From Actinoplanes auranticolor (GTDB lineage Bacteria > Actinomycetota > Actinomycetes > Mycobacteriales > Micromonosporaceae): a stretch of 64,000 bases of DNA. The notes beneath the pieces were generated by a model. It did not search any database. It saw only the letters and a program-made list of their open reading frames with translations, and was not told the origin of the DNA. Position numbers and translations under genes: made by a program. Of this stretch, positions 6,119 to 54,559 are shown one piece after another. The stretch covers positions 1 through 64,000 of the forward strand of contig NZ_BOQL01000065.1 of NCBI RefSeq assembly GCF_018332655.1. Direction: 5' to 3'. The number at the start of each line of letters is the position of its first letter. The stretch's first letter is position 1.

Positions 6119-6671
6119 CGGGTTCCCGTCCGCGCTGAAGCTCCTGATCGCGGGCGGCTTCGGCGTCGGCAAGACGACGTTCGTCGGTGCGATCAGCGAG
6201 ATCGAGCCGCTGCACACCGAGGAGCTGCTCACCGTCGCGAGCGTGGGCACGGACCGGCTGACCGGTGTCGAGCACAAGTCGACGACCACGGTCGCGATGG
6301 ACTTCGGCCGCATCACGATCAGCCAGGATCACGTGCTCTACCTGTTCGGTACCCCGGGACAGGAGCGGTTCTGGTTCATGTGGGACGAGCTGTCCAGCGG
6401 CGCGATGGGCGCGGTCGTGCTGGCCGACACCCGCCGGCTGGAGGACTGCTTCCCCGCCGTGGACTTCTTCGAGTCGCGCGGCATCGGGTTCCTGATCGCG
6501 GTCAACGAATTCGACAACTCGTGCCGGTACGAGGCAGACGATCTGCGCAGCGCTCTCGACCTGAAGTCCGAGGTCCCGATCATGCTCTGCGATGCGCGTG
6601 ACCGGCGATCTGCCACCGCCGTGCTCATCAGTCTGATCCACCATCTCCTCGCCTCGCGTGCCCGCCGATGA
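6096..6671 (+). CDS. cvnD: Conservon small GTPase (CvnD type)
   Basis: 191 residues from ATG 6096, which lies inside the 3' end of cvnC, as is usual for this operon; an upstream ATG at 6060 would add 12 non-family residues. The P-loop is GGFGVGKTT, switch II is FGTPGQERFWFMW, and the base-recognition motif is reduced to NEFD rather than NKxD, as in other CvnD proteins. It is a Ras/MglA-like ATP/GTP-binding protein that would cycle with the roadblock protein CvnB beneath the membrane component CvnA. Confidence 0.9.
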   Translation: MPFNDGSDGFPSALKLLIAGGFGVGKTTFVGAISEIEPLHTEELLTVASVGTDRLTGVEHKSTTTVAMDFGRITISQDHVLYLFGTPGQERFWFMWDELSSGAMGAVVLADTRRLEDCFPAVDFFESRGIGFLIAVNEFDNSCRYEADDLRSALDLKSEVPIMLCDARDRRSATAVLISLIHHLLASRARR

Positions 6672-17156: not shown

Positions 17157-18296
17157 ATGACGCATCGCAAGCGTCTCAGCGCAGCCGTCGGCGTCGCTGT
17201 TCTGGCTTCCACCGTGCTGGCCTCGGCCCCGGCCGCCGCTTCGCCGGCCCCGGACCCAGCAGCTGTGACGTTCCCATTCCCGGAGCACGCCCGCAAACAG
17301 ATTCCCCTGGTCCAAGCGGCCAGCGCCGTGCGCAAAGAAATCGAGCGCCGGGGCCCGGCCGGCTACGCCGGGATCGAGCTCGAGGACGAACACGTCACGG
17401 TGTGGTGGAAGGGCAAGCTGCCCGCGGAGATGGAACGGACGATTGCCGCCGCCCGGAAGATCGCGCCCGTACACGTCGGGACGGCCAAGCACTCACTGCG
17501 CGAACTGCGAACGGCGGGCGCCGAGCTGCGGTCGGCCTATGCCGCGGCGAAGCCACGGATCAAGTACGCCGTGGACGGCAGCCGCATCGTCGTCGCGACG
17601 AGCGGGCGCTCGGGCATCACCCGGCAACTGCCGAACGTCGGCGTGGCAGTCGAGATCGTCGACCAGGGCACGAAGCTGCTGACCAGCCGGCGCGACGACT
17701 GGGCACCCTGGAAGAGCGGCGCCGACCAGATCAACGGCAATTCCCGCTGTACGACCGGCTTCCCCGTCCGCAACGGCAACAACGAGCGGTTCATCCTCAC
17801 CGCCGGGCACTGCGGCAGCAACGGCAACCAGATCCGCGACGGCGTCGGCGAGTTCATGGGCACCTTCACGGCCGACAACGACGGGCACGACATCGCCCTG
17901 ATCAGCACGCCCGGCAACGTGGACAACGTGATGTACGTCGGCGGGCTCGACAGCAACGTCGTCACCACTGTCGTCGGCTGGGACTGGACGTTCCCCGGCG
18001 AGTACCTCTGCCAGTCCGGCGGGTCGTCCGCCCGCGACACCGGCGGCCCGGTGTGCGGACTGCGGGTCGAGAAGTTCAACACCGACTCCGGCGACGCCGT
18101 CGAGGCCCGCCAGGTCGACGGCCGGCCGGCGGTCCGCGGGGGCGACAGCGGCGGCCCCGTCTACGGTCCGGCCGCCAACGGCGGAGTGGTCGCCAAGGGC
18201 ATCAACAACTACACCTACGTCGGCAACAACACGATCCTCGGCTTCCAGGACTTCGGCACCGCGACCCGCGACTACGGCATCTGGATCGTGGAGTAG
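17157..18296 (+). CDS. Secreted streptogrisin/alpha-lytic-type serine protease (S1 family)
   Basis: 379 residues. Sec signal peptide (1-27), a ~160-residue propeptide resembling the pro-region of alpha-lytic proteases, and a chymotrypsin-fold catalytic domain. The triad is intact: TAGHCG (His), GHDIALIS (Asp) and GGDSGGPV (Ser). Cys pairs around TAGHC, YLCQSGG and GPVCGL fit the usual disulfides. GAAAGG-like GAAAGG at 17144-17149 supports ATG 17157. It would be exported and self-processed to degrade extracellular protein. Confidence 0.9.
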   Translation: MTHRKRLSAAVGVAVLASTVLASAPAAASPAPDPAAVTFPFPEHARKQIPLVQAASAVRKEIERRGPAGYAGIELEDEHVTVWWKGKLPAEMERTIAAARKIAPVHVGTAKHSLRELRTAGAELRSAYAAAKPRIKYAVDGSRIVVATSGRSGITRQLPNVGVAVEIVDQGTKLLTSRRDDWAPWKSGADQINGNSRCTTGFPVRNGNNERFILTAGHCGSNGNQIRDGVGEFMGTFTADNDGHDIALISTPGNVDNVMYVGGLDSNVVTTVVGWDWTFPGEYLCQSGGSSARDTGGPVCGLRVEKFNTDSGDAVEARQVDGRPAVRGGDSGGPVYGPAANGGVVAKGINNYTYVGNNTILGFQDFGTATRDYGIWIVE

Positions 18297-26970: not shown

Positions 26971-28545
26971 TCAGAACGGGAGTGCGCGGCGCAGCAGGTC
27001 GAACGCCTCGTCAGCCCAGCCGAGTACCGCCAAGCCGGCCGCGAGGTTCTGGGGCGGCCTGGTCAGCAGGGTGTCGCGGCGTAGCAGCCGGCCGAAGTCG
27101 ACGCTCACCGGGTCCGGTCTCGGCGTAACCCCGTCGGTGCGACAGAACTGCACACCGGCGCGCCGCATCACCCGGATGATCTCGTCGGCCAGCAAGCCGT
27201 AGCCGATCGTGGTCGGGTGCACGCCGTCCAGCGAGAACAGGCCTCCGTCGGCGCGCCCACCGCGCCGATCCGAGATCATGAAGCGCGAGGTGACGGGCGG
27301 CGACACCGCGGACAGTGCTGCCGGCAGCGGGTATCGCTGCCACCACGGCGGCCTGGCGGTTGGATCGTCGATGTAGCGGCGGTCCGCCAGCCGGTCGAGC
27401 ATTCCGGCCGCCTCCATCACGAACCAGTCGAGGCCGTCGGAGCGGGCCTGCCGTACGACCCCGGTGATGGCGTCGTTGAAATGATCGATGGCACTGTCCA
27501 CGGCCCGGGCCTCGTCCGCCGTGATGTTCGGGTCCCGGCGCGGATCGAAGGCCCGATCCGAGATCCATGGCCGGGTGTAGAAGGGGAAGTAACGGGATCC
27601 GGCCTCGATCTTCGAGCCCACGCCGCGACTGATCGGAGGGATCGTCACGTGCGGCACAGTGCACCAGATGACGTGGCGGGCCTTGATCTTTCGCACCGCG
27701 GCGACCACTTCAGCAAGTTCAGCGGCGAAGTGGCTGGGCCGCCATACCGTGTAATCGCCCTTCCGGTCGGGATCGTCGTATCCGTCCCCGCTCCAGACCA
27801 CTTTGAGCCGGGTTACGGCGCCCAGCGCGTTGTTGGCACCCAGGGACACCACCAGGGTTTCGATGCCGCAGTCCGCGCCGGCGCCGGCGCCCTCCTCGCC
27901 CAGTTCCTCGGCCAGTTCGAACAGAGTTGCGGAGCCCCGGGCGTCGGTGTCCGGGTAGACGCGCAAGGCGGCCCGCTCGCTGTTGTTCTCGACCACCTGC
28001 GTCACGAGGTCGTCTTTGGGCTTCGCCAGCCGGTCGCGGCAAGCTTTCGCGTTCTGGGACAGGGCGTCGCGCAGATCCCAGCCGTACATGGCGAGGTTGT
28101 GATTCACGCCGTTGACATGAGGGATGACCGAGCCGGGGCCACGTTCCCAGTAGTCCTCGAGGGTGTCCATCCACTGGCGGGCTGAGAACAGAGCCGCCGG
28201 GACTTCCCACCAACTGAGCTGTTCGCCGTACCGCTGTTCAAGAGTGCGCAGGAGCAGTTCGATGTTGATCGGGAGACCGCCGGGACCGCCGTACGTCGGG
28301 CGGCGGAACGTGTCGAGGCAACCGAGCTCGTAAGCGATGATCGCCGGCACCGAGAGGTCGGTCTGGTACACGGCACCGCTCTGGAACCCATGGAACAGGG
28401 AGTCGCCGATTGTCACCAAACGGTGCGGCGGGACACCTTGCCAGTTCGTCTGCACGTCGACACCCAGCGCGGGGTCGGCGACCGGGGTACGGGGGGTCCG
28501 GGTGACGCCGACGTCGTCGGGAATCCCTTCGGGCATTGTCTGCAC
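26971..28545 (-). CDS. SGNH/GDSL-family hydrolase, last gene of the prenyltransferase operon
   Basis: 524 residues, no signal peptide. Block I is LVTIGDSLFHGFQSG with the nucleophile Ser. Block III is LVVSLGANNALGAV, where the usual G-x-N-D is A-N-N. Block V is LDGVHPTTIGYGLLAD with the catalytic Asp and His. Long insertions between blocks make it about twice the length of a minimal SGNH esterase. It would cleave an ester or acyl bond on an unknown substrate. It follows the 154-residue protein gene by 18 nt containing GGAAGGGAGG, and is the sixth gene of the operon. Confidence 0.8.
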   Translation of the reverse strand: MQTMPEGIPDDVGVTRTPRTPVADPALGVDVQTNWQGVPPHRLVTIGDSLFHGFQSGAVYQTDLSVPAIIAYELGCLDTFRRPTYGGPGGLPINIELLLRTLEQRYGEQLSWWEVPAALFSARQWMDTLEDYWERGPGSVIPHVNGVNHNLAMYGWDLRDALSQNAKACRDRLAKPKDDLVTQVVENNSERAALRVYPDTDARGSATLFELAEELGEEGAGAGADCGIETLVVSLGANNALGAVTRLKVVWSGDGYDDPDRKGDYTVWRPSHFAAELAEVVAAVRKIKARHVIWCTVPHVTIPPISRGVGSKIEAGSRYFPFYTRPWISDRAFDPRRDPNITADEARAVDSAIDHFNDAITGVVRQARSDGLDWFVMEAAGMLDRLADRRYIDDPTARPPWWQRYPLPAALSAVSPPVTSRFMISDRRGGRADGGLFSLDGVHPTTIGYGLLADEIIRVMRRAGVQFCRTDGVTPRPDPVSVDFGRLLRRDTLLTRPPQNLAAGLAVLGWADEAFDLLRRALPF

Positions 28546-28563
28546 CTCCCTTCCGAGGTGGTG

Positions 28564-29025
28564 TCAGGCGGCCGACACCTCGTCACACCGCAGGATCTCT
28601 CCGTTGACGACCGCGTTCGCGGTCGCCTGCACCGACCGGACGTCCAACTTCGGCCCTATGCCGGGCTTGGCGGTGCCCGGGTCGGGCAACCCGGAGCCGG
28701 CGCCGGCGTCCACCGAGATGCCGATCCCCGCACTCCACAGGCGGGCATCCGCCTCCGCGGCGTTGACCCGCCGGTCGGACCGGCGCGCCGCGCCGGGCAC
28801 CGTGCTGGGCAGGACGCCCTGGAAGGTGGCGGAAACCTCGATGGACTCCACCGGCTTGTCGACCCAGTCCTGCTTTTTGAAGAAGATCCAGACGGTGGTC
28901 TCCTCCCAGTGCTGAGCGTGTACCGTCGCGCCGATGGCGTTGTAGAACAACAGGTTGGTACGCCAGGCGGTCAGGACGAGCCGCCAGGTCCGATCCCGCG
29001 TGTAAGCCCGGCTCTCGGTGGCCAT
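28564..29025 (-). CDS. Unknown 153-residue protein of the prenyltransferase operon
   Basis: Start ATG 29025 is set by GGAGG 7 nt upstream and forms a TGATG overlap with the previous stop. Begins ATESRAYTRDRTWRLVLTAW and then has hydrophobic, Trp-rich strands (HAQHWEETTVWIFFKKQDW). A Gly/Pro-rich middle and a second beta-type segment (PKLDVRSVQATANAVVNGEI) follow. No signal peptide, no membrane helix and no motif I recognise. The alternating pattern suggests an all-beta fold. Tight coupling implies it functions with its neighbours. Confidence 0.7.
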   Translation of the reverse strand: MATESRAYTRDRTWRLVLTAWRTNLLFYNAIGATVHAQHWEETTVWIFFKKQDWVDKPVESIEVSATFQGVLPSTVPGAARRSDRRVNAAEADARLWSAGIGISVDAGAGSGLPDPGTAKPGIGPKLDVRSVQATANAVVNGEILRCDEVSAA

Positions 29026-29324
29026 CACCGCACCTCCACGGGCTTCGGGAAGGGTGGCAACAGACGGATCCCTCGCCGGCGGGAAGCCGCGAACAAGGCG
29101 AGGGCACCGCGGACGCCGAGTCGTGACAACAACACCGCCAGAGCGTGGGCGCCGGTGCTGATCCGGGTCCGGCCGCCACGAGTCGACCGGATGACGTACG
29201 GGCGTTCCAGGCGGCCCGGGCCCCTGTGCGGTTCCACGTGGACGCGCGTCCGGGCGGCGCCGGCGATGACATGGGCGAGTTCGTCGCAGTGTGGGCAGTC
29301 GCTGTCGTACACCAACGTGACCAT
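29025..29324 (-). CDS. Small CPHC thiol-redox protein (thioredoxin/DUF393-like)
   Basis: 99 residues from ATG 29324, with AAAGGAG 7 nt upstream and a TGATG overlap with the prenyltransferase stop. It opens MVTLVYDSDCPHCDELAHVI, a beta strand leading to a CPHC active site and helix, as in glutaredoxin/thioredoxin-fold proteins. CPHC is the DsbA-type dithiol. After about residue 35 the chain is Arg-rich and gives no clear second half of a thioredoxin fold. No signal peptide is present, so it would act in the cytoplasm. A role in thiol or disulfide handling of an operon substrate is inferred. Confidence 0.65.
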   Translation of the reverse strand: MVTLVYDSDCPHCDELAHVIAGAARTRVHVEPHRGPGRLERPYVIRSTRGGRTRISTGAHALAVLLSRLGVRGALALFAASRRRGIRLLPPFPKPVEVR

Positions 29325-30340
29325 CAAGAGACTCCTTTGGTCGCGGTCAAGTAGTAGGTGAGCGTGGGAATGCCGGTCAGCCGGATGCCGAGCATGGTCG
29401 GCACGGCTCCGGCGGCTACCAGCCGAACGGCGGCGTTCACCGGCGCGCTGGGCAGGCCGAGTACTCGGGTCAGGTCACCGACCGCTGCGGCGCCGTCGGT
29501 GGCGGGATCGAGGAGCTTGGTGGGGAGGTAGAGCGCGGTGGTCACCAGCGCGGCCAAGTCCGCTGTACCGGTCCGGCCCACCACCGCCTGCCGCTCCGGC
29601 ACGGGTGCCGCACCACGCAGAACGGCCGCCACATCTGGGTGCCGAGCCGCCTCGGGCAGCAATGCGAGCGCTGCAGTCGCGGTACACGGTCGTTCGACCC
29701 GGCGATAGACCTTGACCGTGTCGGGGCCGTCCCCGCTCACTGCGAGACCGACGATGCCCGTACGCGCCGGAAGATCACGGTCGCCGTCGAGCAGCCGGCG
29801 CAGCATCGGCACGGTGTGCTCGGGCATCAGATCCGCGGCGGGCACGGCACCCAGCTGAGGCGGCAGATAGACCTTGGCGACGGCCGGCGACGAGCCGCCG
29901 GCGCGGTAACCGATGCTGCACCAGAGCCCGAATCGGTGGACCGTGGTGAGGGCCGGCGCAGAGGCCCGCAGACGGCAGGCCAGCCGATGCCCGGCGGACC
30001 AGCGAAGCGCGGTCGAAACCCGCGTCAACTGGTCCGCCTGGCGAACCAGTCGTTGCGGTCCCGGCGGTTCGGTCGCGTAGGCGTCCGTGGTGAGCCGCAC
30101 CGCTGTACGGCCGTCCGCCCGGACGGACACCGACATCTCCACGGGTACGCCTGACGGCGTCAGGGTCGAGCCACGCCGTCCGGTGGAGGCGGGGAACGAA
30201 CCGACGGTCAGGGCGTCCCACGAACGAGACGTCGCTGTGGCCGGCACACCCGCGGCTTCCGCGGCCAGCGCGTCCCACAGCGCGCGAACCGGCGCAGCCG
30301 CGGTGGCGGACGCCGCTGTGGGGCAGCCTGAGCCCACCAT
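29324..30340 (-). CDS. ABBA/DMATS-type aromatic prenyltransferase-like enzyme
   Basis: 338 residues from ATG 30340, 4 nt after the preceding stop; longer in-frame starts run through the collagen-like gene and are rejected. Features matching bacterial DMATS-type ABBA prenyltransferases: STLTPSGVPVEMSVSV near residue 60 (compare the S-L-x-D-G-P-E-S strand); HRFGLWCSIGYRAGG then VAKVYLPPQ (FGLWxS...KVYxxP); DTVKVYRRVERP (second K-V-Y strand, one of the diphosphate-shielding Lys/Tyr positions); and a final strand LTGIPTLTYYLTA. These enzymes attach prenyl groups to Trp, Tyr or other aromatic rings. The acceptor is unknown. The family call is by motif spacing only. Confidence 0.6.
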   Translation of the reverse strand: MVGSGCPTAASATAAAPVRALWDALAAEAAGVPATATSRSWDALTVGSFPASTGRRGSTLTPSGVPVEMSVSVRADGRTAVRLTTDAYATEPPGPQRLVRQADQLTRVSTALRWSAGHRLACRLRASAPALTTVHRFGLWCSIGYRAGGSSPAVAKVYLPPQLGAVPAADLMPEHTVPMLRRLLDGDRDLPARTGIVGLAVSGDGPDTVKVYRRVERPCTATAALALLPEAARHPDVAAVLRGAAPVPERQAVVGRTGTADLAALVTTALYLPTKLLDPATDGAAAVGDLTRVLGLPSAPVNAAVRLVAAGAVPTMLGIRLTGIPTLTYYLTATKGVS

Positions 30341-30344
30341 GACG

Positions 30345-31046
30345 TCATGCCTGCTTGATGAACTGCCCGGAGCCGGCAACGCCGGTGTTGCCCGAGGCGG
30401 CCGACGCGCCCGGTTCGCCGGTGTTCGCGGGTCCCGGGGGATCGCCCGGCTCGTAGTCGGAGTGGCTGTAGCTCGTCGCGCGGCCCTTGCCGGTTTGACC
30501 GGTGTTGCCGGCCGGTCCACCGGCACCGCCGAGCCCGCCGGGCCCACCGCGGCCGCCACTGACGTCCCACACGGGCGGGATTCCTGAGAGGTCGTCGCGG
30601 TAGTAGATCACGATGCTGCCGCCCGGCCCGCCGTCACCGCCACGACCGCCGTCACCGCCACGGCCGCCGTCACCGCCACGGCCGCCGTACGCGTTGCTCT
30701 CACAGTCGGCACCCCATCCGCCGTCGCCCCCGGGACCGCCGCTGCCTCCGGTGCCGCCATTGCCGCCTGTGCCGCCGATGCCGCCGAGACAGCTGATCTG
30801 GATACCGCCCAGGTAGTCGTCCACCTTGATGACGACTGCTCCGCCGGCGCCACCCGGTGTACCGGCGGAACCGGAACTACCGGCGGCACCCCGCCCGCCG
30901 TCGGAGCCACGAGTCGGCTCGTTGTCGTCCCAGAAGCCGCAGTCGGCATCCTGGCCGGGAACGCCGTTGGCGCCGGCCGTACCGACGAAACCGTTCTGTC
31001 CCGCAGCGCCAGTGGCACCGGCCGCCACGATGTTGAATCCAGGCAT
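30345..31046 (-). CDS. Collagen-like Gly-rich repeat protein
   Basis: 233 residues, more than a third Gly, with long GGxGGx and GxY runs (for example GGRGGDGGRGGDGGRGGDGG). Two related modules interrupt the Gly tracts: GGAVVIKVDDYLGGIQISC (about 69-87) and GGSIVIYYRDDLSGI (about 142-156), each a beta strand pair. Cys occurs at CGFWDDNEP, QISCLGG and ADCESN. No signal peptide or membrane segment. Similar proteins are thought to form beta-solenoid or polyglycine-II-like rods. It sits 9 nt after the preceding gene and 4 nt before the prenyltransferase gene. Confidence 0.75.
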   Translation of the reverse strand: MPGFNIVAAGATGAAGQNGFVGTAGANGVPGQDADCGFWDDNEPTRGSDGGRGAAGSSGSAGTPGGAGGAVVIKVDDYLGGIQISCLGGIGGTGGNGGTGGSGGPGGDGGWGADCESNAYGGRGGDGGRGGDGGRGGDGGPGGSIVIYYRDDLSGIPPVWDVSGGRGGPGGLGGAGGPAGNTGQTGKGRATSYSHSDYEPGDPPGPANTGEPGASAASGNTGVAGSGQFIKQA

Positions 31047-31055
31047 GCTGATCTC

Positions 31056-31628
31056 CTATTCGCCCTTGATGGATGTCGCGGTGATCTGCAAGCTCTTGCC
31101 CGACGCGACGATCCGGGCATTGCTTCGGATGAGCAGGTTGCGACAGGCCAGTGCCGCGTTGAAGTCGGTGAGCAGCAGCGTGCCGCCGGGGTTCACGGTC
31201 ACGTCCTGAAAGAGCCACTTGACGATCTGCGGCTTGCCCGGGAGCACGGTGTCGCGATCCAGGCCGTGGGTTGCGATCACAGCCGGGTCGAATTGACGCG
31301 CGATCCGCCAGAAGGTGCTGATCTTGGTGCGCTCAGCGGTTGGCAGGGCGGCGAGCATGCGCGGGTAGCGGCCGAGGTCCGGCCGCAACGACCCGGGCAC
31401 AAAGCGGCGGGACCGGTGTACGGCCACGTCCGCGAGCGCGTCCCGGGTGACGGTGGTCGCGGCCTCGGCGAGCTGCCGAAGTTCGCCGTCGGTGTCGACG
31501 ACGCCCTGATCGACGAGGTCGCCGAGCCTGGTGAGCGTCATCGTCCGGCGGGCGTCCGAGAACGGTTGCCCGGCTCGGTCGTCCAGCCGCACGGTGGAGT
31601 TGTCCGCAACGAGGATGTCGTCGGGCAT
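31056..31628 (-). CDS. First gene of the operon: helical protein with beta-solenoid-like C-terminus
   Basis: 190 residues from ATG 31628, supported by GAAAGG upstream; the in-frame extension to 31676 is not conserved-looking. An N-terminal beta segment (DDILVADNSTVRLDD) and a helical middle are followed by VKWLFQDVTVNPGGTLLLTD, then ACRNLLIRSNARIVASGKSL and a last strand ITATSIKGE. The final 50 residues look like two or three rungs of a right-handed beta-helix. The Gly-rich protein encoded next could continue such a structure. No function is recognised. Confidence 0.65.
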   Translation of the reverse strand: MPDDILVADNSTVRLDDRAGQPFSDARRTMTLTRLGDLVDQGVVDTDGELRQLAEAATTVTRDALADVAVHRSRRFVPGSLRPDLGRYPRMLAALPTAERTKISTFWRIARQFDPAVIATHGLDRDTVLPGKPQIVKWLFQDVTVNPGGTLLLTDFNAALACRNLLIRSNARIVASGKSLQITATSIKGE

Positions 31629-31873
31629 GACATCACGCCTTTCCGGTCGGTGGCAATGGCCGGTGGAGTCGGCCACCTGTTTCCAGGCTGGCCGGTCGCG
31701 CGACGGCAGTAATCCGGCTGCGACATGAATTGCGGTGTCATCCGCGGGACGTATCCGGCGTAGGCGGGTACCGCCCCGGTCGTATGTGTCGGGTACATGA
31801 ATGACGGATGTCGCCGGGCCGAGATACCGAGAAGAATCGGTGATGATCCATTTGTTGCCCGAAGGGAGTCACC
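31629..31873. other. 245-bp divergent regulatory region
   Basis: This region separates the minus-strand six-gene operon from the plus-strand peptide/two-component unit and must hold both promoters. Two partly symmetrical stretches, ATGTGTCGGGTACAT (31783-31797) and acgtcgtgtgtaggt at the plus-strand start, are possible sites for the adjacent LuxR-type response regulator. No clear -35/-10 pair is visible. Confidence 0.3.
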
Positions 31874-32452
31874 GTGGTCACGTCGTGTGTAGGTATCGTT
31901 TCGGTTCAGCGCGTGACGGCCGGCGACGCCGTTGATCGCCACATTGTTTTCGGAGAGCTCGTTGATGCCGACGCGGTCGTGGTGCCCGGCCCTCTCGACT
32001 GGTTGCGGGACCCGGCGATCGACTTCGAGGTGTTGATCGCATCGAGCCGCCGGGGCGGCCCCGGCCACGTCGAGCGGGTACGGGTCCGGCAGGCGGAGGT
32101 GATCGGTGTCGACTCCGGCCCGGAGGGCGCCTGCGCGGTATTACGTCTGGAGCGGGCGGCGGCACACCGCCCCTACGCCGGTGGCCGCTTCGACGGGGAC
32201 CGGCTGCGGACCGAGCTCGAGGGCTATCCGGACGTATGGCGTGGGCTCTGCGCCATCGGCGCGGTGCGCACCGAGCTCACCGACCTGGACAAGGATCGAG
32301 TGCTCCGCCCGGTGGCGGATTGGGAGGCGGCCCGGCGTGCCGCCCTGGTACGGGAACGACTGGTCAGTCCGGCCGAAGTCGCGCAGCTGAAGTGCTGCAT
32401 CTTCGTGATCTGCTGGTGGTGCCAGGAATGCCGGGGGGACTGGTGGGACTGA
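31874..32452 (+). CDS. Degenerate trypsin-like domain with Cys/Trp-rich C-terminal tail
   Basis: 192 residues from GTG 31874 with GAAGGGAG at 31861-31868. The first ~95 residues follow the order of a trypsin N-terminal barrel (FGELVDADAVVVPGPLDWL, FEVLIASS, ACAVLRLERA), but the His expected in the AAHC position and the Asp expected before ALLRL are absent, so no protease activity is expected. After a charged helical linker the protein ends CCIFVICWWCQECRGDWWD, with five Cys (including CxxCxxC) and four Trp in 19 residues. The tail could be a modified core peptide, a metal site or a membrane anchor. Its codons overlap the kinase start. Confidence 0.6.
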   Translation: MVTSCVGIVSVQRVTAGDAVDRHIVFGELVDADAVVVPGPLDWLRDPAIDFEVLIASSRRGGPGHVERVRVRQAEVIGVDSGPEGACAVLRLERAAAHRPYAGGRFDGDRLRTELEGYPDVWRGLCAIGAVRTELTDLDKDRVLRPVADWEAARRAALVRERLVSPAEVAQLKCCIFVICWWCQECRGDWWD

Positions 32453-33630
32453 TCCGGCGGCGGCTGCCCGGGGCCACCCGCCAGATTCTGATCGATGGCG
32501 CACTGGCGGTGCCACTCTGCGCCCTCGACCTCGCGATCTCATGGAGCGCCAACCGCCGGGGCGACCTCGCATTCTGGGTTGTCCCCGGCTACGCCATTGC
32601 GGGATATCTGATCCTTGCGATACGACGACGCTATCCGATTGCGGTGTTCGCTGTCGTCGTGATCCATTCAGCATCGGCCGGGGTCTTCTTTGCCGGCTTC
32701 CATCCCACCATCGGCGTGTGGTGGGCTCTCTACACCGTTGCGTACTGCAAGGAATTGCGCGTCGCTCTGCTCTGCCTGCCGGCGGTCGCCGTCCCGATGG
32801 GTCTCAACATCATTGATGCGGTGGACCGTCAGCCACCGGATCGGCGGATCGACGCTCTGATCGGCGTGACGGTCGGCCTGACGCTGTTCAATGCGATCGC
32901 CTTCGGTGTCGGCCGCTGGGTGCGCTGGGCTGGACGCCAGCGGCGCCTGGCCGCAGAGCACGCCGCGGCCGATGCGGTCGCGGAGGAGCGGGCCCGCATC
33001 GCCCGCGACCTGCACGACATCGTTGCTCACGCGATCACGATGATGCTGCTGCAGGCCGGTGGCGCCGCACGCTGGGTGCGTCCCGACCCCGCCCGCGCGG
33101 AGCAGGCGCTGGGCCATGTCGACGCGCTGGGTCAACAGGCGATCGTCGATCTACGACGGATGCTGGATCTCATGCGGGTCGGCCGGGCCGGAGAGCCGCC
33201 CGAGCCGTCGGCCCTGCCGGGCCTCAACCGGCTTGCGGAGCTGGTGAACCATATGCGATCCGACGATCTGCCGGTCGAGCTCGCGTGTACGGGTCAGGTC
33301 CGCGCTCTGCCGCCAGGAACCGAGGTGTGCGCCTATCGGATCCTGCAAGAGGCGCTGACCAACGCCACCCGGTACGCCGAGCGGGGAACCGTCGTCCGGG
33401 TGGCCGTGGACTGGCAGCCGTCCCGCATCGTCCTGAGCGTCCACAATCGTCAGATACCGCAGGGCAGAGCCCACCGGAGACTGGGCACCGGCCACGGAAT
33501 CCTGAACATGCAGGAGCGCGCGCACTCCGTCGGCGGTCGGGTGACGGCCAATCCCGCACCCGGCGGTGTCTTCGTCGTCCGGGCCGTCCTGCCGGTCGCC
33601 GCCGAGACGGCCGTGGATGTCCGGTCATGA
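32428..33630 (+). CDS. NarL-type sensor histidine kinase
   Basis: 400 residues from ATG 32428; GTG 32443 with GGGGGG just upstream is an alternative. About five membrane helices (LIDGALAVPLCALDLAI, FWVVPGYAIAGYLILAI and others) with no large external domain. HisKA_3 motif ARIARDLHDIVAHAITMML carries the phospho-His. HATPase_c has EALTNATRYAERG (N box) and GTGHGILNMQERAHSVGG (G box). The start lies inside the last codons of the tailed protein gene, so the two are translationally coupled. It probably senses a membrane or cell-wall signal. Confidence 0.9.
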   Translation: MPGGLVGLIRRRLPGATRQILIDGALAVPLCALDLAISWSANRRGDLAFWVVPGYAIAGYLILAIRRRYPIAVFAVVVIHSASAGVFFAGFHPTIGVWWALYTVAYCKELRVALLCLPAVAVPMGLNIIDAVDRQPPDRRIDALIGVTVGLTLFNAIAFGVGRWVRWAGRQRRLAAEHAAADAVAEERARIARDLHDIVAHAITMMLLQAGGAARWVRPDPARAEQALGHVDALGQQAIVDLRRMLDLMRVGRAGEPPEPSALPGLNRLAELVNHMRSDDLPVELACTGQVRALPPGTEVCAYRILQEALTNATRYAERGTVVRVAVDWQPSRIVLSVHNRQIPQGRAHRRLGTGHGILNMQERAHSVGGRVTANPAPGGVFVVRAVLPVAAETAVDVRS

Positions 33631-34358
33631 GCCGCCCGCCGAACGGCACCCGGATCCGGGTTCTGCTCGTCGACGACGAGCAGATGGTTCGTGACGGACT
33701 CGCGATGATGATCGACGCCGAGCCGGACATGGTCGTGGTCGGTCAGGCCGGCGACGGGGACGAAGCCGTCGCGCGAGCGCGGTCACTGCGACCGGACGTG
33801 GTGGTGATGGACGTACGGATGCCCCGCGCTGACGGAGTGCAGGCCACGCGCCGGCTGGTGGCTGACGAATTCGTGGTGGACGGAAAGTTCGTTTCGGCGG
33901 TCCTGATCCTGACGACCTTCAACGACGACTCGGTCGTGCACGAGGCGCTGCACGCCGGTGCGTCGGGTTTCCTGCTGAAGAGCGCCTCGTCCCGCATGCT
34001 CGGCGAAGCCGTACGGGCAGTCGCCGGGGGTTATGCGTGGCTCGACCCACCGGTGGCACGCAAGCTGCTCGCCGAGTTCGTATCCCGGCCGGTGTCCCTC
34101 CTGCCCGCCGATTCGTACCTGGAACGGCTGACGCTGCGCGAGACGGAAGTCCTCATCATCGCCGCACACGGGTTCACCAACCAGGACATCGTCGAGCACC
34201 TGATCATAAGCGAGGCGACCGTCAAGACCCACGTGTCGCGGGTGCTGACGAAGCTCGGTCTGCACGACCGGGCCCAGGCCGTCGCCTGGGCCTACAGAAG
34301 CGGGCTCGTACGCCCGGAAGATCCGCCTCCCGTACGGCGCCGAGGACCGCATCGATGA
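33627..34358 (+). CDS. LuxR/NarL-family response regulator
   Basis: 243 residues from ATG 33627, overlapping the kinase stop by ATGA. Receiver domain: VLLVDDEQMVRDGL (acid pocket), VVVMDVRMPRADG with phospho-acceptor Asp, LILTTFNDDS and FLLKSA with the conserved Lys. Output: LTLRETEVLIIAAHGFTNQD then VEHLIISEATVKTHVSRVL, a GerE-type HTH. The likely target is the divergent promoter region 31629-31873, an inference from position. Confidence 0.92.
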   Translation: MSRPPNGTRIRVLLVDDEQMVRDGLAMMIDAEPDMVVVGQAGDGDEAVARARSLRPDVVVMDVRMPRADGVQATRRLVADEFVVDGKFVSAVLILTTFNDDSVVHEALHAGASGFLLKSASSRMLGEAVRAVAGGYAWLDPPVARKLLAEFVSRPVSLLPADSYLERLTLRETEVLIIAAHGFTNQDIVEHLIISEATVKTHVSRVLTKLGLHDRAQAVAWAYRSGLVRPEDPPPVRRRGPHR

Positions 34359-47956: not shown

Positions 47957-48721
47957 TCAGCGATCCGGATCACCGTGGACCACACACGTCATCAGGGAAC
48001 TGACCGGGTGTCGCCGGTATCTGCGCCAGAAGGCCTCGTCGCGTTCACGGTCGGGTGGCGGCGTGCGGATCGGTGACCATTGGACGGTGTCGAAGCCGGC
48101 CCGCCTCGCGGCGCCCTCGTAGTCGGCGAGTTGCCACTCGTAGTCCTCCAGGGGTGTGGGCGGGTCGGTGGTGAACTCCTGACGGATCAGCGGGACCTCC
48201 CGGCCGGGAACGCGTTCGAGGATGCGCAGGCCGAACTCGTCATAGTTGGCCTCCGGGAACGGCGTGGGGTTGGCCACGATGGCCAGCAGGCGGCCGTGGT
48301 CGGCGAGGTTGGCGCGAATGCCGCGGAACATGGAGTCCAGCGCCGCGCGGGTGGGTGCGTAATTGAACAGGTAGATCGCGGTGGCGAGGTCGAACCGTCG
48401 CAGGGACGGCAGGTCCGCCACATCCGCGACGACGTAGTCGATGCCCATCGGCGACCCGGCCTCGTTCTTCTCGGCGAGGCGGATCATCTCCACGGAGACG
48501 TCGACGCCCACGACGGGCCGGGCCCCGCGTGCGGCCAGCAGCCGGGTGTTGTAGCCGTACCCGCAGGCGAGGTCGAGGGCGGCCAGACCGGTGACCTCAC
48601 CGAGGGCGCCGCGCAGCGTGAACGTGTCCGCGGCGGAGAAGGCGGCCGTCGACTTCGACTCCTCGAAGCGCGCGCCGATCGAGTCGTACTGCTCCGCGCC
48701 CGTCCCCGTGCCCGGCTTCAT
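47957..48721 (-). CDS. Class I SAM methyltransferase of the P450 operon
   Basis: 254 residues. Motif I is ALDLACGYGYNTRLLAARGA, the acidic loop is VVGVDVSVEMIRLA, and later motifs are IDYVVADVADLP, FDLATAIYLFNYAP and GRLLAIVANPTPF. It resembles ToxA/NodS-like small-molecule methyltransferases. The start overlaps the asparagine-synthase stop by 4 bp (ATGA), so it is the last gene of the minus-strand operon that begins at the P450. It is the probable O- or N-methylation step; the substrate is unknown. Confidence 0.85.
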   Translation of the reverse strand: MKPGTGTGAEQYDSIGARFEESKSTAAFSAADTFTLRGALGEVTGLAALDLACGYGYNTRLLAARGARPVVGVDVSVEMIRLAEKNEAGSPMGIDYVVADVADLPSLRRFDLATAIYLFNYAPTRAALDSMFRGIRANLADHGRLLAIVANPTPFPEANYDEFGLRILERVPGREVPLIRQEFTTDPPTPLEDYEWQLADYEGAARRAGFDTVQWSPIRTPPPDRERDEAFWRRYRRHPVSSLMTCVVHGDPDR

Positions 48722-50721
48722 CGGCGGATCAGCGCCCCGCCCGTGCCGTCGAACTGCCGGAGGAGCATCCGGTCGATGTCGACCTCCGGCACCTCGACAT
48801 TGTCGACCAGACTCTCCTGCAGCAGCAGCGTGCTGAGCACCTGCAGGTAGGCGTGGTTGTAGGGGAACGGAACTTGTCCCCCGGCGAAGGAGCCGACGTG
48901 GGCGACCAGCCGCTGCACCCCGGCGGCGTCGAGCACGCCGCAGTCGCGCACCCGGCGCGGCGAGAGGATGTCGTCCACCCAGTCCCCCGTGCCGGTGGGC
49001 AGGAGATGCTCGGCCCCGGGGATCCGCATCCCGAACTTCGGCCGGTCACGGATCTCCTCGGGCAGAACGTCCGCGTACGCCTCGCGAAGAATGTGCTTCT
49101 CCCTGGTCAATCCGCGCAGCTTCCACTCGCGGGGCAGACCGGCCGCGAAGGCGACGACCGAACGATCCACGAAGGGGTATCGCGATTCGATGCGGCACCC
49201 CGCGCCGGGACGGTCGGCGAGGCAGGTCATCCCGTACCCGCTCAGCAGTGTCTGGTAGTCCAGCCACTGGGAGCGGCCGACCGTGTCCAGGTCGTCGAAG
49301 CCGGTGATGCGGGAGCGCGCGAAGTCGGCCAGTCGCCGGTCATCGTCGGCGACGCCGTTCCTGGCCCGCAGCAGGCCGGGATACAGCTCGGCCTCGAACC
49401 GGCGCAGGTGCGCCCCCATTACCGGCGTTTGCCGGCCGGCACGGTCCTCGAAGAAGCGCAGGATCGCGGCCGGTGTCGTGGGATCGGTGAGCAGGACGTC
49501 GGCCAGGCCGGAGCCCAGCAGCTTCTCCTGCTCCGCCGTGAACCCGCCGGCCAGGCAGGAATCCAGGACGGTGGCCTCCTTGAGGATGTCGTACCCGAAG
49601 AACGCCTCGTCGGCGCCCTCCCCGCCGAGCACGATCCGGACCCCGCTCTGCCCCACGTGCTCGGCCAGCATCTCGACGGCGACCGGTGCGGCGAAGTGCA
49701 GCAGCGACTCGCACTTGCGGACGAGATTGGGGAACCGCTCGCGGATGTCCCGGCCGGTGGCCACGACGGACGAGTGCCGGGTGCCCAGCTTCGCCGCGAT
49801 GATCTTCTGGTACGCCGATTCGTCGGCCCACGAGTCCGGCACGGTGATGGAGAAGGTCGGCAGATCGCCGGTGATGTGCTGCCGGGCGATCCAGGCGACG
49901 ATGCTGGAGTCGAGGCCGCCGCTGAGGAACGCGCCGCGCGGGTAGTCCCCCCGCAGCCGGAACCGGACCGCTTCGTCGAGTTTGTCGCGCAACGCCGCCT
50001 TCGCGTCGGTGAACGACAGCTCCGTCCGGCCGCGGTCGCCACGGTCGATCGGGATCTCGAAGTAGGCCGACAGCACCGTCCCGCCGGGCCCGACGCGCAG
50101 AGTGTGACCAGGCGGAAGGCTGCGCACCCCGGTGAAACACGATTCGCCCGGCACCGGTGTCCAGAACCGGCCATTGGCCCGGACGCCCTCGACGGACAGC
50201 TCACGGTGCACTTCGGGGAACGCGAACAGCCCCTTGATCTCAGAGGCGAAGAGGAAGGCGCCGTTCTGCTCGGTGTAGAACAGCGGGCGTTCTCCGAACG
50301 GGTCACGCCCCAACAGCAGTTCACGGCGTTGCCGGTCGTAGAAGGCGAAGGCGAACTGGCCGTTGAGCCGGTCGAGGGCGGCCTCACCCCAGGTGGCGAG
50401 GCTGTGCAGCAGCACTTCCGTGTCGGAGTTCGTGGCGAAGGTGACGCCCTGCGCCACCAACTCCTGCCGGAGCTCCAGATAGTTGAAGATCTCTCCGTTG
50501 AAGCCCAGCACGAATCGTTCGTCGGCTGTGACCATCGGTTGCTTGCCGAGCATGGGGTCGATGACCGACAGCCGGACCGTCCCGAGGGTGAACTCGTCGT
50601 CGTCGTAGATGCCCGCCTCGTCCGGGCCGCGATGGGCGATGCCACGGAGGCCCCGGCGCAGGCTGGTGATCCGGTCGTCCCTGCGCTTTCGGCTGTTGAG
50701 GAAGCCGACGACACCGCACAT
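48718..50721 (-). CDS. asnB: Asparagine synthase (glutamine-hydrolysing)-type amidotransferase
   Basis: 667 residues. The N-terminal Ntn glutaminase domain starts MCGVVGFLN with Cys2 as nucleophile and has IAHRGPDEAG and GFNGEIFNYLELR. The synthetase domain has the PP-loop FLSGGLDSSIVAWIA and GEGADEAFFGYDI. It is slightly longer than housekeeping AsnB (~610-640). Placement between a GS-type ligase and a methyltransferase suggests amide formation on a biosynthetic intermediate rather than free aspartate. GAAAGGGG precedes ATG 50721. A lasso-peptide cyclase is less likely because the glutaminase domain is intact and no B-protein or precursor is nearby. Confidence 0.88.
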   Translation of the reverse strand: MCGVVGFLNSRKRRDDRITSLRRGLRGIAHRGPDEAGIYDDDEFTLGTVRLSVIDPMLGKQPMVTADERFVLGFNGEIFNYLELRQELVAQGVTFATNSDTEVLLHSLATWGEAALDRLNGQFAFAFYDRQRRELLLGRDPFGERPLFYTEQNGAFLFASEIKGLFAFPEVHRELSVEGVRANGRFWTPVPGESCFTGVRSLPPGHTLRVGPGGTVLSAYFEIPIDRGDRGRTELSFTDAKAALRDKLDEAVRFRLRGDYPRGAFLSGGLDSSIVAWIARQHITGDLPTFSITVPDSWADESAYQKIIAAKLGTRHSSVVATGRDIRERFPNLVRKCESLLHFAAPVAVEMLAEHVGQSGVRIVLGGEGADEAFFGYDILKEATVLDSCLAGGFTAEQEKLLGSGLADVLLTDPTTPAAILRFFEDRAGRQTPVMGAHLRRFEAELYPGLLRARNGVADDDRRLADFARSRITGFDDLDTVGRSQWLDYQTLLSGYGMTCLADRPGAGCRIESRYPFVDRSVVAFAAGLPREWKLRGLTREKHILREAYADVLPEEIRDRPKFGMRIPGAEHLLPTGTGDWVDDILSPRRVRDCGVLDAAGVQRLVAHVGSFAGGQVPFPYNHAYLQVLSTLLLQESLVDNVEVPEVDIDRMLLRQFDGTGGALIRR

Positions 50722-50743
50722 GGAAGCGAGCCCCTTTCGTAGG

Positions 50744-52051
50744 TCAGACAGATTCGAGGTAACGGCTGCGCTCCCAGCCGGACACCTCGGCGTCGGCGGC
50801 CGCCTGCTCCGCCCGGCCCAGCTGGCACAACAGGTCAGTCACCTGGTCACCCAGCGCCGTCCGCGCAAAGGTGCTGCCGCTGAGCAGGGCCAGGGCCTCC
50901 GACACGTTCCCCGGCAGCGGGTCGGCGTCGGTTGCCGCGTACACGTCGCTCGTGACGGCGGGTGGCGGTTCCAGTTGCTTCTCCAGGCCGGCCAGGCCGG
51001 CGAGCAGCTGGGTGGCGACCAGGAAGTACGGGTTGGCGTCGGCCGCCGCCACCCGGTGCTCCAGCCGTGTTCCGCTGTCCCCGTGCACCAGCGCCCGCAG
51101 GGCGACGGAGCGGTGGTCGTACCCCCACGTCACGTGCGTGGGTGCGAACGAATAGGTGGCCGACCGTTTGTAGCCGTTGGGCGTCGGCACGGCGACGTAA
51201 CTCGTCTCGGCGGCGTGATGCATCAGCCCGCCCAGATACCACCGCGCCTGCATGCTGAGTTCGCCGGATTCCGCGTCCCAGAACACATTGCGACCGGTCT
51301 CCCGGCTGCGCAGGCTCTGGTGGACGTGCAGGCCGCTGCCGGACGACTCCGCCCACGGCTTGGCCATGAAAGTGGCCAGATAGCCGTGCGCGGCCGCGAT
51401 CTGCTTGACGGCGTAGCGGAAGAACAGCAGGTCGTCGGCCGCGGCCAGCGGCGTGGACTGGCCCAGGTTGATCTCCACCTGGCCGGCGCCGTACTCCGCT
51501 CCGCTGGCCTCCACCGCGACGCCCGCGGCCAGCAGCGCCGACTGGATGTCCCGGAGCACCGGCCACAGGTAGGAGTCGTCGTGCAGGCTGTAGATGGGGA
51601 TGCGCGGATGCCGGGGGCGGAGCGTTCCGGGGTCGAGCAGATAGAACTCCGTCTCGAGACCGAAGCGCGCGTCGTACCCCGCCTGCCGGGCCTCGGTCTC
51701 CGCCCGGCTGAGGATCAGGCGCGGGTCGAGCGGGACGGGATGACCGGCCCGGTCCACGACAGTGCAGAACACCAGCGCTGTTCCCGGGCGCCAGGGCACC
51801 AGCCGTACGGTGTCCGGGTCGGGCACCAGGAAGACGTCCGGATAGCCACTCGCCCAGCTGTACTCGCCGGCGGAGAGCACGCCGAGGCCGTAGTCGAGAC
51901 AGAAGTACCCGGACGACATCGCGAACTGGGAAGTCTGCTGGAACACAGCCGCGGGTATGCGTTTGCCCCGGATCGCGCCGTGCGTGTCCACCACCGCCAG
52001 TTCCACGGTCTCGATCGCGTGGTCCTTGATGAACCGGTCAATCGGCGGCAT
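50744..52051 (-). CDS. Glutamine synthetase-family ATP-dependent ligase
   Basis: 435 residues from ATG 52051 with GGAGGAGG upstream; the start lies 14 bp inside the preceding gene. GS beta-grasp start VELAVVDTHGAIRGKRIPAA, metal-ligand region FGLETEFYLLDP and GAEYGAGQVEINLGQ, the catalytic FMAKPWAESSGSGLHVHQSL, and NGYKRSATYSFAPTHVTWGY with RLEHRVAAADANPYFLVA. It belongs to the GlnA3/PuuA-like group that forms gamma-glutamyl amides rather than the housekeeping dodecameric GSI-beta enzyme with an adenylylation Tyr loop. In this operon it likely activates a carboxylate as acyl phosphate for amide formation. Confidence 0.85.
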   Translation of the reverse strand: MPPIDRFIKDHAIETVELAVVDTHGAIRGKRIPAAVFQQTSQFAMSSGYFCLDYGLGVLSAGEYSWASGYPDVFLVPDPDTVRLVPWRPGTALVFCTVVDRAGHPVPLDPRLILSRAETEARQAGYDARFGLETEFYLLDPGTLRPRHPRIPIYSLHDDSYLWPVLRDIQSALLAAGVAVEASGAEYGAGQVEINLGQSTPLAAADDLLFFRYAVKQIAAAHGYLATFMAKPWAESSGSGLHVHQSLRSRETGRNVFWDAESGELSMQARWYLGGLMHHAAETSYVAVPTPNGYKRSATYSFAPTHVTWGYDHRSVALRALVHGDSGTRLEHRVAAADANPYFLVATQLLAGLAGLEKQLEPPPAVTSDVYAATDADPLPGNVSEALALLSGSTFARTALGDQVTDLLCQLGRAEQAAADAEVSGWERSRYLESV

Positions 52052-53213
52052 GGATCCTCCTCCGGCCGGACCGCAGGAAGGGGAATACCTCGGCGGCCCG
52101 CGCCGGCAGGTCGGCAAGATAGCTCTGCCACGCGGTGCGGCATCCGTGACAGAGGTCGACGCCGCCGAAGCGACTGGATCCCTCGGCCCCGTACGAGGCT
52201 CGATAGCGGCACTGGACGCAATGCGGTTCACCGGACTTCTCCAGCATGTCCGCAAGCCCGGGGAACATCAGTTCGCCGCTGCGCGCGATCACGCCGGTGT
52301 AGCGCGTGTCGCTGGTGCTGCGGCCGGTCGCGTCGATCCGGTTCCACAGTTTGACGTTCCGGCGGGTCTCGGCCACCACGTGCGGGGTCTCCGGCAACCC
52401 CACCGTCAGGCCGTCCTCCGTGAAGCGGTACCGGCGCATCATCATGTGGATCGGGCCGCCGAAGTAACGCAGGAAGTTGACCGCGCAGCGGTGTGCCGGC
52501 GATGTCGCCCAGGCAACGTCCAGTGCCCACAGGACCTCGCGAGCGCGCCGGAAGGACTCGTTGCGCAGCTCGTGCCCGGCGTACGCGAAGGTGCTGTTGG
52601 TCTCGCCCTCGGCCCGATGCTTGTGGTACGCGACCGCGTCGTACAGCGTGTCGCCGAGCTCGGTGAGGATCTCGAACTCCTCCTCGCCGAACCAGGTGTC
52701 GTCGAGGTCGTTGCAGGCCAGGGCGGCGGCGATGGTGAAGCGGGCCAGCGCGTCGCAGTCGCGCAGCCGGAACCAGTCCCGCGGCGAGCGGGCCAGCGCG
52801 TTCACGTACCGGCGGAACAGCTCCGAGTCGCGCCGGTCGCTGGACTTGTCCGCGGTGATCAGCAGGAACGTCCGGTACTCCCGCGCCATCTCCCGGTGGC
52901 CCGGGGTGCCGGCGAAGACCGTGTCGAGCAGCTCGTCGAGGTCGTACCCCAGGACTTCGCCGCCGGTGGTGATCTCGACGAGCGAGCCGCGGAACTCCGC
53001 GATGATCCCGATGATGATGATCCGGGTGAAGGCGACGTAGCGCTCCCAGTTGGTGAACTGCGGGATCACGCACCTGGTGTACTCCCACGCACAGGCGAGC
53101 GTCTCGGCGATGATCTCGTCCGACAGGCCGGTCCCGCGCAGGTCGTGCTCCAGGACACTCGGGTAGAACCAGAGATCGCCGTCCGTAGGCGTCTCCATCG
53201 GCCGTGCGGTCAT
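52038..53213 (-). CDS. Unknown helical protein with NDLDD motif and CxxC...CxxC tail
   Basis: 391 residues from ATG 53213 (AAGGAG upstream, ATGA overlap with the P450 stop). Nearly all helical, without signal peptide. ALACNDLDDTWFGEEEF and GDTLYDAVAYHKHRAEGETN resemble, but do not clearly match, the acidic metal-binding motifs of class I isoprenoid synthases. RYRFTED follows later. The C-terminus carries HCVQCRYRA ... DLCHGCRTAW, a probable structural zinc site. Adjacent P450 and tight coupling favour a biosynthetic role such as a non-canonical terpene-synthase-like enzyme, but this is weak inference. I do not recognise the family. Confidence 0.55.
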   Translation of the reverse strand: MTARPMETPTDGDLWFYPSVLEHDLRGTGLSDEIIAETLACAWEYTRCVIPQFTNWERYVAFTRIIIIGIIAEFRGSLVEITTGGEVLGYDLDELLDTVFAGTPGHREMAREYRTFLLITADKSSDRRDSELFRRYVNALARSPRDWFRLRDCDALARFTIAAALACNDLDDTWFGEEEFEILTELGDTLYDAVAYHKHRAEGETNSTFAYAGHELRNESFRRAREVLWALDVAWATSPAHRCAVNFLRYFGGPIHMMMRRYRFTEDGLTVGLPETPHVVAETRRNVKLWNRIDATGRSTSDTRYTGVIARSGELMFPGLADMLEKSGEPHCVQCRYRASYGAEGSSRFGGVDLCHGCRTAWQSYLADLPARAAEVFPFLRSGRRRIHAAD

Positions 53214-54559
53214 GCGGCTGCTCCTTCGGGGTCGGCGGCGTGCAGACGCATACGCAGCGCCCGTGGGGTCAGCACCAGGCTCACCGCGGGGCGGACGGGC
53301 GGGCCCGGCACCGGCCGCAGTGACCACCGGCGGACGATGGCCGACACCATCAGCGTCGCCTCGGCCAGGCCGAGCACGTCACCGACGCATCGCCGGGCGC
53401 CGCCACCGAAGGCGAGGAAAGGACCGCGTGGCGGCCGCAGCGGGTCCGCGTGTTCCGCCCATCTCCCGGGACGGAAGTCGTCCGGGTCCGGGAAGTGCGC
53501 GGCCTGGCGCTGGACCGCGTACGGGCTGTAGGCGATCGTCGTGCCGGCGGGTACGGGATGCCCGCCCAACTCCGTGTCCTCGGTGGTCAGCCGGGTCAGG
53601 AAAGGAACGGGCGGATACAGCCGCATCGTCTCCAGCACCACCTGGCGGCACACCGCCAGCCGCGACAGGTCCGCCACCGTGACCTCGCCGTCTCCGACCA
53701 CCTCCACCGCCTCGGCGCGCAGGCGCCGCTCGATGTCGGGGTGCCCGGCCAGCAGGTGCAGGGCCCAGCTGACCACGTTCGCCGTCGTTTCCGTCCCGGC
53801 CAGCAGGAACGTCAGCACCTGGTCATGAATCTCGTCCTCGGTGAGACCGTCGGGGTCATAGGAGGACAGCAGACCGGACAGCAGGTCGTCGTGGTCGGTC
53901 TCCCGTGAGCGGTGCTCGGCGACGAGGCCGGCGACGATGGCGCGCAGCCGTTCCTGCGCCCGGCGATAACGCCGGTTGGCCGGTGTCGGCACCCGGTCCA
54001 GGCGCTTCGGTACGATCGCCCGCCACGTCACCCCGGCCAGGATCACGTGCATGTCGGTGAACATCTGCTCCATCACGGCGGGCGGCAGGCCCCGGGGTAG
54101 CAGCGTGCGGGCGGTGATCGCCTGCATGTCGGTACGGACGTCGACGGTCTCGCCGTCCCGCCAGCCCGCGAGGACCACGTCGATCTGCCTGCTCATCATC
54201 CGCAGGTATCCCGGCAACCGGTCGCGGTGAAAAGCCGGCTGCACGAGGCGCCGTTGCCGCCTGTGGTCGCGGTGCGGGCAGCTGACCAGCCCGTTGCCAC
54301 CGGTCTCCCGGATGCGGTCGAACAGATAGCCGCCCTTGTCGAAGACCCGGTCGGCGACCAGCATTTCTCCGGTCAGCTCGGCGCTCGTGACGACCAGCGC
54401 CCGCCACGGCCCGATGTGCACGCGGACCAGGTCGCCGTAATGGTGCAACCGCCGGAGGAACGCGAGCCGGTCGCGCATGAGCGGTACCAGGTGGCCGATC
54501 AGTGGCCAAGCTCCCGGCGCCGACGCCACATCGGACATCGCTGCGTGTTCGTCAACCAC
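53210..54559 (-). CDS. Cytochrome P450, first gene of the operon
   Basis: 449 residues from GTG 54559; ATG 54538 is possible. I-helix FLLAGTETTANVVSWALH (AGxxTT), K-helix ETMRLYPPVP (ExxR) and heme loop PFLAFGGGARRCVGDVLGLAEA with the Cys ligand. The R-L-Y-P-P-V sequence and length resemble CYP102/CYP4-like bacterial hydroxylases acting on lipids or terpenes. The start lies 6 nt after TAGCGT, so the mRNA is probably leaderless. It would hydroxylate the scaffold made or modified by the next proteins. It needs external ferredoxin and reductase; none is encoded nearby. Confidence 0.92.
   Translation of the reverse strand: MVDEHAAMSDVASAPGAWPLIGHLVPLMRDRLAFLRRLHHYGDLVRVHIGPWRALVVTSAELTGEMLVADRVFDKGGYLFDRIRETGGNGLVSCPHRDHRRQRRLVQPAFHRDRLPGYLRMMSRQIDVVLAGWRDGETVDVRTDMQAITARTLLPRGLPPAVMEQMFTDMHVILAGVTWRAIVPKRLDRVPTPANRRYRRAQERLRAIVAGLVAEHRSRETDHDDLLSGLLSSYDPDGLTEDEIHDQVLTFLLAGTETTANVVSWALHLLAGHPDIERRLRAEAVEVVGDGEVTVADLSRLAVCRQVVLETMRLYPPVPFLTRLTTEDTELGGHPVPAGTTIAYSPYAVQRQAAHFPDPDDFRPGRWAEHADPLRPPRGPFLAFGGGARRCVGDVLGLAEATLMVSAIVRRWSLRPVPGPPVRPAVSLVLTPRALRMRLHAADPEGAAA

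Follow-up and report, generated by a model that had tools for sequence, protein, structure and literature searches.

A conserved module of Cys-tailed protein, histidine kinase and NarL-type regulator beside a genome-specific DMATS operon in Actinoplanes auranticolor

Introduction

The HbpS-SenS-SenR system of Streptomyces is a redox system in which a separate accessory protein performs the sensing and modulates a membrane kinase (PMC4991794, PMC3754957). The three genes point the same way in several actinobacteria, and a neighbouring target gene is found in some of them alone (PMC4991794). In the vWA-MoxR/VMAP conflict systems, catalytically inactive trypsin domains act as non-enzymatic signalling parts (PMC7159879). 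Here we analyse a locus of Actinoplanes auranticolor that recalls both. The window, by which we mean the whole stretch of 64,000 nucleotides (nt) that was analysed (contig NZ_BOQL01000065.1, positions 1 to 64,000), is part of a 65-kb contig in a genome of 9.88 Mb. It contains two divergent units. Unit 1 (31874-34358) consists of three overlapping plus-strand genes for a protein with a Cys-rich tail (hereafter the tailed protein), a histidine kinase and a response regulator; unit 2 (26971-31628) consists of six tightly packed minus-strand genes, running from 31628 down to 26971, one of which encodes a DMATS-type prenyltransferase. An earlier note on this DNA had proposed that the two units form one new pathway in which the tail is prenylated. 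Our analysis does not support a single pathway. We conclude that unit 1 is most likely an undescribed three-gene sensing module of actinomycetes, and that the operon facing it is probably its output in this genome.

The tailed protein belongs to a conserved three-gene module

The product of 31874-32452 ends in CCIFVICWWCQECRGDWWD, with the five Cys and four Trp that had been read there before. Its gene overlaps that of a membrane histidine kinase with HisKA_3 and HATPase domains (32443-33630, start approximate; Pfam), which in turn overlaps the gene of a NarL-type response regulator with receiver (Response_reg) and GerE domains (33627-34358; Pfam and NCBIfam). Hydropathy analysis predicted about five membrane helices in the kinase, which has little sequence outside the cell.

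Relatives of the tailed protein occur in at least 19 other genomes of the same order, namely G025, G030, G097 and G299 plus 15 at the family level; the family-level search itself gave a tally of 19 of 301 genomes, the window genome counted in, and a search with a closer subset of the alignment gave seven loci. All relatives with named records are Micromonosporaceae (Catellatospora, Micromonospora, Rhizocola and Plantactinospora). At every one of the 19 other loci the kinase gene directly follows the tailed gene on the same strand, mostly overlapping it or lying within about 10 nt, and a regulator gene is adjacent: downstream in 17, upstream in one (G097, L010:9659-11006) and on the opposite strand in one (G356, L114). 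G422 carries a second, truncated copy of the tailed gene without a kinase. An accessory gene conserved beside a kinase and a regulator, which characterises three-component signalling of the HbpS-SenS-SenR type, was thus found at 19 of 19 other loci. Literature searches turned up no such system in which the accessory protein is Cys-rich or a protease faces it.

We then examined the tailed protein itself. None of 20 family members had a significant Pfam match, and no NCBIfam model matched either of the two members tried; judged by sequence, this is an undescribed family without a model in either library. The protein consists of a degenerate, single-barrel S1 trypsin-like domain (about residues 1-95), a helical region and a disordered C-terminal tail, CCIFVICWWCQEC. 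Its AlphaFold2 model (predicted local distance difference test score, pLDDT, 85.4; predicted template-modelling score, pTM, 0.76) shows six strands, helices and then a low-confidence tail, and the Foldseek list for it consists of S1 proteases, with about 100 residues aligned. S1 peptidases have two barrels and a His-Asp-Ser triad, whereas here there is one barrel; by our reading of the alignment and model the catalytic His and Asp positions are lost and the second barrel is absent. In the model, the tailed protein is one six-stranded half of the trypsin (S1) fold and lacks the catalytic residues. Neither a signal peptide nor a membrane helix was seen.

The tails of the relatives vary. Most carry GGFCIFFCFCHPHHPK or near variants, and others end in DICDYVPCCEPCPPRLRR, WDICPFILWPCRPCQPCRP, WPCLWPLICLCVPDEPY or DCCKPVFPRTCCENCFAGW. 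Across the 20 aligned members two Cys never vary and a third almost never does, in a pattern of roughly C-x(3-7)-C-x(0-2)-C, often with a His after it. The Trp are not conserved, and most relatives carry Phe, Pro or His at those places.

The facing operon encodes a divergent DMATS-type prenyltransferase

The third gene of unit 2 (29324-30340, minus strand) had been assigned to the DMATS-like, or ABBA, prenyltransferases, and this assignment stood. Matches in the libraries were below threshold (Pfam Trp_DMAT, E 0.034, 14.0 of 25 bits; NCBIfam arom_pren_DMATS, E 0.005). PF11991 is present in 32 of 151 related genomes, and a bacterial DMATS profile (A1) built from twelve of those proteins matched the product with 28.8 bits (E 1.4e-8; hmmsearch, 302 sequences); the best of 300 shuffles reached 4.5 bits and the other open frames of the window at most 1.4 bits. 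Comparison with DMATS by hhalign gave 94.6% over 248 columns. The alignment shows that E68, R82, K156, Y158, K210, Y212, Y271 and Y330 are kept, residues that, by comparison with FgaPT2, would include the catalytic Glu, diphosphate-binding Arg and Lys, and the tyrosine shield. In the AlphaFold2 model (pTM 0.60) ten antiparallel strands are arranged in beta-beta-alpha-alpha repeats, and both Foldseek and VIA-align placed bacterial DMATS structures first, with a VIA Z of 19.5 over 299 residues to 6zs0 (S. coelicolor 5-DMATS). The product thus combines a significant family match, a ten-stranded prenyltransferase barrel of five beta-beta-alpha-alpha repeats in a modest model, and most of the catalytic, diphosphate-binding and Tyr-shield residues of the family. 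From its sequence and model we regard it as a genuine, highly divergent DMATS-type ABBA prenyltransferase for which prenyl transfer is predicted.

One pattern scan of 84,980 species returned no direct relatives of this enzyme, and no second DMATS was detected in the window's genome. Weak matches in G016, G028 and G045 were dismissed, as they sit in unrelated rhamnulokinase-like genes. The DMATS gene of the relatives mostly lies beside a tryptophanase-like gene, and this canonical pair repeatedly occurs, in many of L070-L089, near a conservon-like set (large sensor, roadblock-like protein, DUF742-like protein and small GTPase). A conservon-like set (sensor, roadblock-like, DUF742-like, small GTPase) is also present in the window at 3626-6671.

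The two units do not behave as one pathway

Could the enzyme act on the tail? In such a pathway the DMATS would prenylate Trp residues in the tail, and the operon's CPHC protein (29025-29324) would handle the tail's thiols. The adjacency of the units with their divergent promoters, the true DMATS relationship of the enzyme and the four Trp of the window tail all fit this proposal. However, none of the 19 other tailed-family genomes has a DMATS beside the tailed gene. A search with a profile that included the window's own DMATS found one elsewhere in four of them, megabases away or on another contig, and none detectable in the other 15. The tail is moreover an unlikely prenylation substrate because its Trp are not conserved and its Cys are, and characterised bacterial DMATS enzymes use free amino acids or small cyclic peptides as substrates. 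With both co-occurrence and Trp conservation lacking, we rejected the tail as substrate and consider the joint pathway highly improbable. In line with the earlier note, we found no described pathway that combines these genes; what had been taken for one new pathway looks like two unrelated units side by side.

Genes facing the module and the probable target of the regulator

The two units are separated by a divergent intergenic region of 245 bp (31629-31873), which contains a 12-nt imperfect inverted repeat (31733-31744 and 31805-31816), at most a candidate element. Genes facing the triad change between genomes. Secreted S1-like proteases with EHC/AHC and GDSGG motifs face it in seven loci, a B-lectin protein in three and a DUF1444-like protein in one; in L095, L109 and L138 the upstream gene is a co-directional AMP ligase.

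A secreted S1 protease is also encoded in the window at 17265-18296, 13.6 kb from the tailed gene, with a signal peptide that begins upstream of the called start. It is 30% identical (E 4e-28) to the proteases facing the triad in seven genomes.

This protease raises the alternative that the operon lies beside the triad by chance and that the true target is elsewhere, for example 17265-18296 itself. Its match to the facing proteases and the turnover of facing genes speak for that view, as do the flanking sigma/anti-sigma genes, which have different neighbours in every relative examined when we checked for insertion of the whole block as one island. Yet secreted S1 proteases are common in actinomycetes, so the proximity of this copy may be accidental, and a divergent promoter region of 245 bp is an ordinary arrangement for a regulator and its target. 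We regard a chance neighbourhood as possible but on the unlikely side.

A further alternative concerns the role of the tailed protein, which might be an effector or structural partner, such as a membrane-attached scaffold or a protease inhibitor, whose expression the two-component system merely controls. An S1-like half barrel next to S1 proteases could indicate protease binding, and hydrophobic tails such as FCIFFCFC could attach to a membrane. The tailed protein nevertheless has no signal peptide, whereas the proteases are secreted, and the overlap of its gene with that of the kinase is more in keeping with a protein that pairs stoichiometrically with the kinase. We judge an effector role to be quite unlikely.

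Proposed mechanism

We favour an accessory-protein two-component system that lies next to a genome-specific DMATS operon, the latter being its probable output. This reading builds on the gene order, the family relationship, the folds at model level, the conservation of the triad and the absent co-occurrence; metal or thiol sensing, kinase contact, control of the facing operon and enzyme activity are the parts that we infer. The tailed protein would be a cytoplasmic, catalytically dead half-trypsin barrel serving as an input subunit, and its conserved C-terminal Cys would most likely coordinate a metal or act as a thiol-disulfide switch. The membrane kinase lacks a sizeable extracellular sensor domain of its own, and the tailed protein may set its activity by docking on it. 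The NarL-type regulator would then switch transcription, most simply that of the facing genes through the shared intergenic region. In unit 2, probably the genome-specific output of unit 1, the DMATS would probably alkylate an aromatic substrate other than the tail.

Several points weigh against this proposal. Contact with the kinase and ligand binding by the tail Cys are both indirect inferences. Several loci (L095, L109 and L138) lack a divergent upstream gene, and control of the facing gene is therefore no general rule; a shared regulator site was looked for upstream of the tailed genes and none was found. The Foldseek E-values for the half-trypsin fold are modest (best 6e-4) and the template-modelling scores are low (about 0.35, for a query that extends beyond a single barrel). 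As for the prenyltransferase, one conserved diphosphate-binding Arg is Thr208 in the window enzyme, and its model is of low confidence (pLDDT 56) and was made from an alignment containing canonical DMATS sequences, so that the fold evidence depends in part on the sequence evidence.

A bolder version can be formulated, in which the module represents a new two-component class whose half-trypsin, Cys-tailed sensor reads the often-facing secreted protease, or redox or metal status, and which has here been rewired to drive a prenyltransferase operon whose product would be a new prenylated compound. We consider this rather doubtful.

Other genes of the operon and the window

The frames of the tailed protein, kinase, regulator, GDSL protein, DMATS and 153-residue protein are real genes, since homologues exist elsewhere. 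The gene set and order of unit 2 agree with the earlier reading, as does the close spacing with its TGATG overlaps. From its start, 31056-31628 is followed after 9 nt by 30345-31046 and after a further 4 nt by the DMATS gene, which overlaps 29025-29324 by 1 nt (TGATG); this overlaps 28564-29025, again by 1 nt, and a gap of 27 nt, or 18 nt with an upstream GTG as start, precedes 26971-28536. All six genes lie on the minus strand. By contrast, the labels given earlier to the individual products fared unevenly.

The first gene (31056-31628) encodes a 190-residue protein of unassigned family. It had no significant match in Pfam, NCBIfam, PHROGs or plasmids and no relatives in 120 related genomes, where weak matches fell in unrelated genes; no family match supports its earlier description as beta-solenoid-like. 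The product of 30345-31046 had been called collagen-like. It is Gly-rich (34% Gly), its five G-X-Y runs are mostly GGX, and it has no detectable relatives, plasmids included. The CPHC motif of the putative DCC1-like thiol-disulfide protein (29025-29324) is present, although the match to the DCC1-like family is weak (E 0.095, 14.4 of 27.8 bits) and covers the N-terminal CPHC region alone. The 153-residue protein (28564-29025), also of unassigned family, has one clear relative, at 31% identity (E 4e-12, pairwise BLAST), in G093, a genome from a different family of the order. Downstream of that relative, within L039:9349-12189, lie an unassigned protein and one that weakly matches squalene-hopene cyclase (E 0.0012).

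The last gene (26971-28536) had been read as a GDSL hydrolase. Its Pfam match is below the cut-off (E 0.0074), but the GDS, GANN and DGVHP motifs are present and relatives 64-71% identical occur in six related genomes, while one more genome has a broken-up match. Five of the six, together with this broken-up copy, lie in a cluster conserved within the same genus that includes a radical S-adenosylmethionine (SAM)/SPASM peptide maturase, nearest to TIGR04463 but under its cut-off. These clusters (L031-L035 and L037, the GDSL gene being broken up in L037; for example L034:5720-16969) are candidates for ribosomally synthesised and post-translationally modified peptide biosynthesis. They usually contain a small upstream protein, together with a large LuxR-type ATPase regulator, a NarL-type regulator and a metallopeptidase-like protein of 590-640 residues. 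Taken as a whole, the operon looks like a genome-specific assembly of unrelated parts.

Elsewhere in the window, the minus strand at 47957-54478 encodes, as read from the sequence, methyltransferase, asparagine-synthase-like, glutamine-synthetase-like, unassigned and P450-like proteins, a possible biosynthetic cluster, and a secreted protein with RTX-like GGxGxD repeats is encoded at 60725-61462.

Comparison with known systems

Adjacency alone misled at this locus, since it pointed to a tail that is very unlikely to be a substrate of the DMATS enzyme. What the locus offers is a protein family stably tied to one kinase/regulator pair across Micromonosporaceae, and with it a handle on what sensor-poor kinases perceive and an experimentally accessible example in which half of an inactive protease domain would serve as the signal input. 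The divergent DMATS, in an operon of non-canonical make-up, may act on a prenylation substrate not seen before.

Set beside the bacterial DMATS enzymes (S. coelicolor 5-DMATS, 6zs0/6zrz; IptA, 7w8u; PriB, 5jxm; CymD, 6os3), the window enzyme shares their fold in its model (Z 18.5-19.5) and keeps most catalytic and diphosphate-binding residues. It differs in being only 19-26% identical to the enzymes of the relatives, in the loss of the conserved Arg, and in its operon partners, which do not include a tryptophanase. With S1 peptidases, the tailed protein shares the N-terminal six-stranded barrel; it lacks their second barrel and catalytic triad and has added helices and the Cys tail. With the vWA-MoxR/VMAP systems it shares an inactive trypsin domain in a signalling setting. 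However, we recognised no gene for vWA, MoxR or VMAP in the neighbourhood of the tailed genes, and the partner here is a histidine kinase, a domain not found among vWA-associated effectors (PMC7159879).

In its architecture the module resembles HbpS-SenS-SenR. Both have an accessory gene beside those of a membrane kinase and a regulator, with a target as neighbour in some genomes. HbpS is a secreted octamer with a GAF-like fold that binds heme or iron. The tailed protein lacks a signal peptide, is modelled as half a trypsin and ends in a Cys-rich tail, and on account of these differences in secretion and fold it does not belong to the HbpS family. By analogy, the best reading is that the triad works like HbpS-SenS-SenR, with a protein of another family in the place of the accessory sensor.

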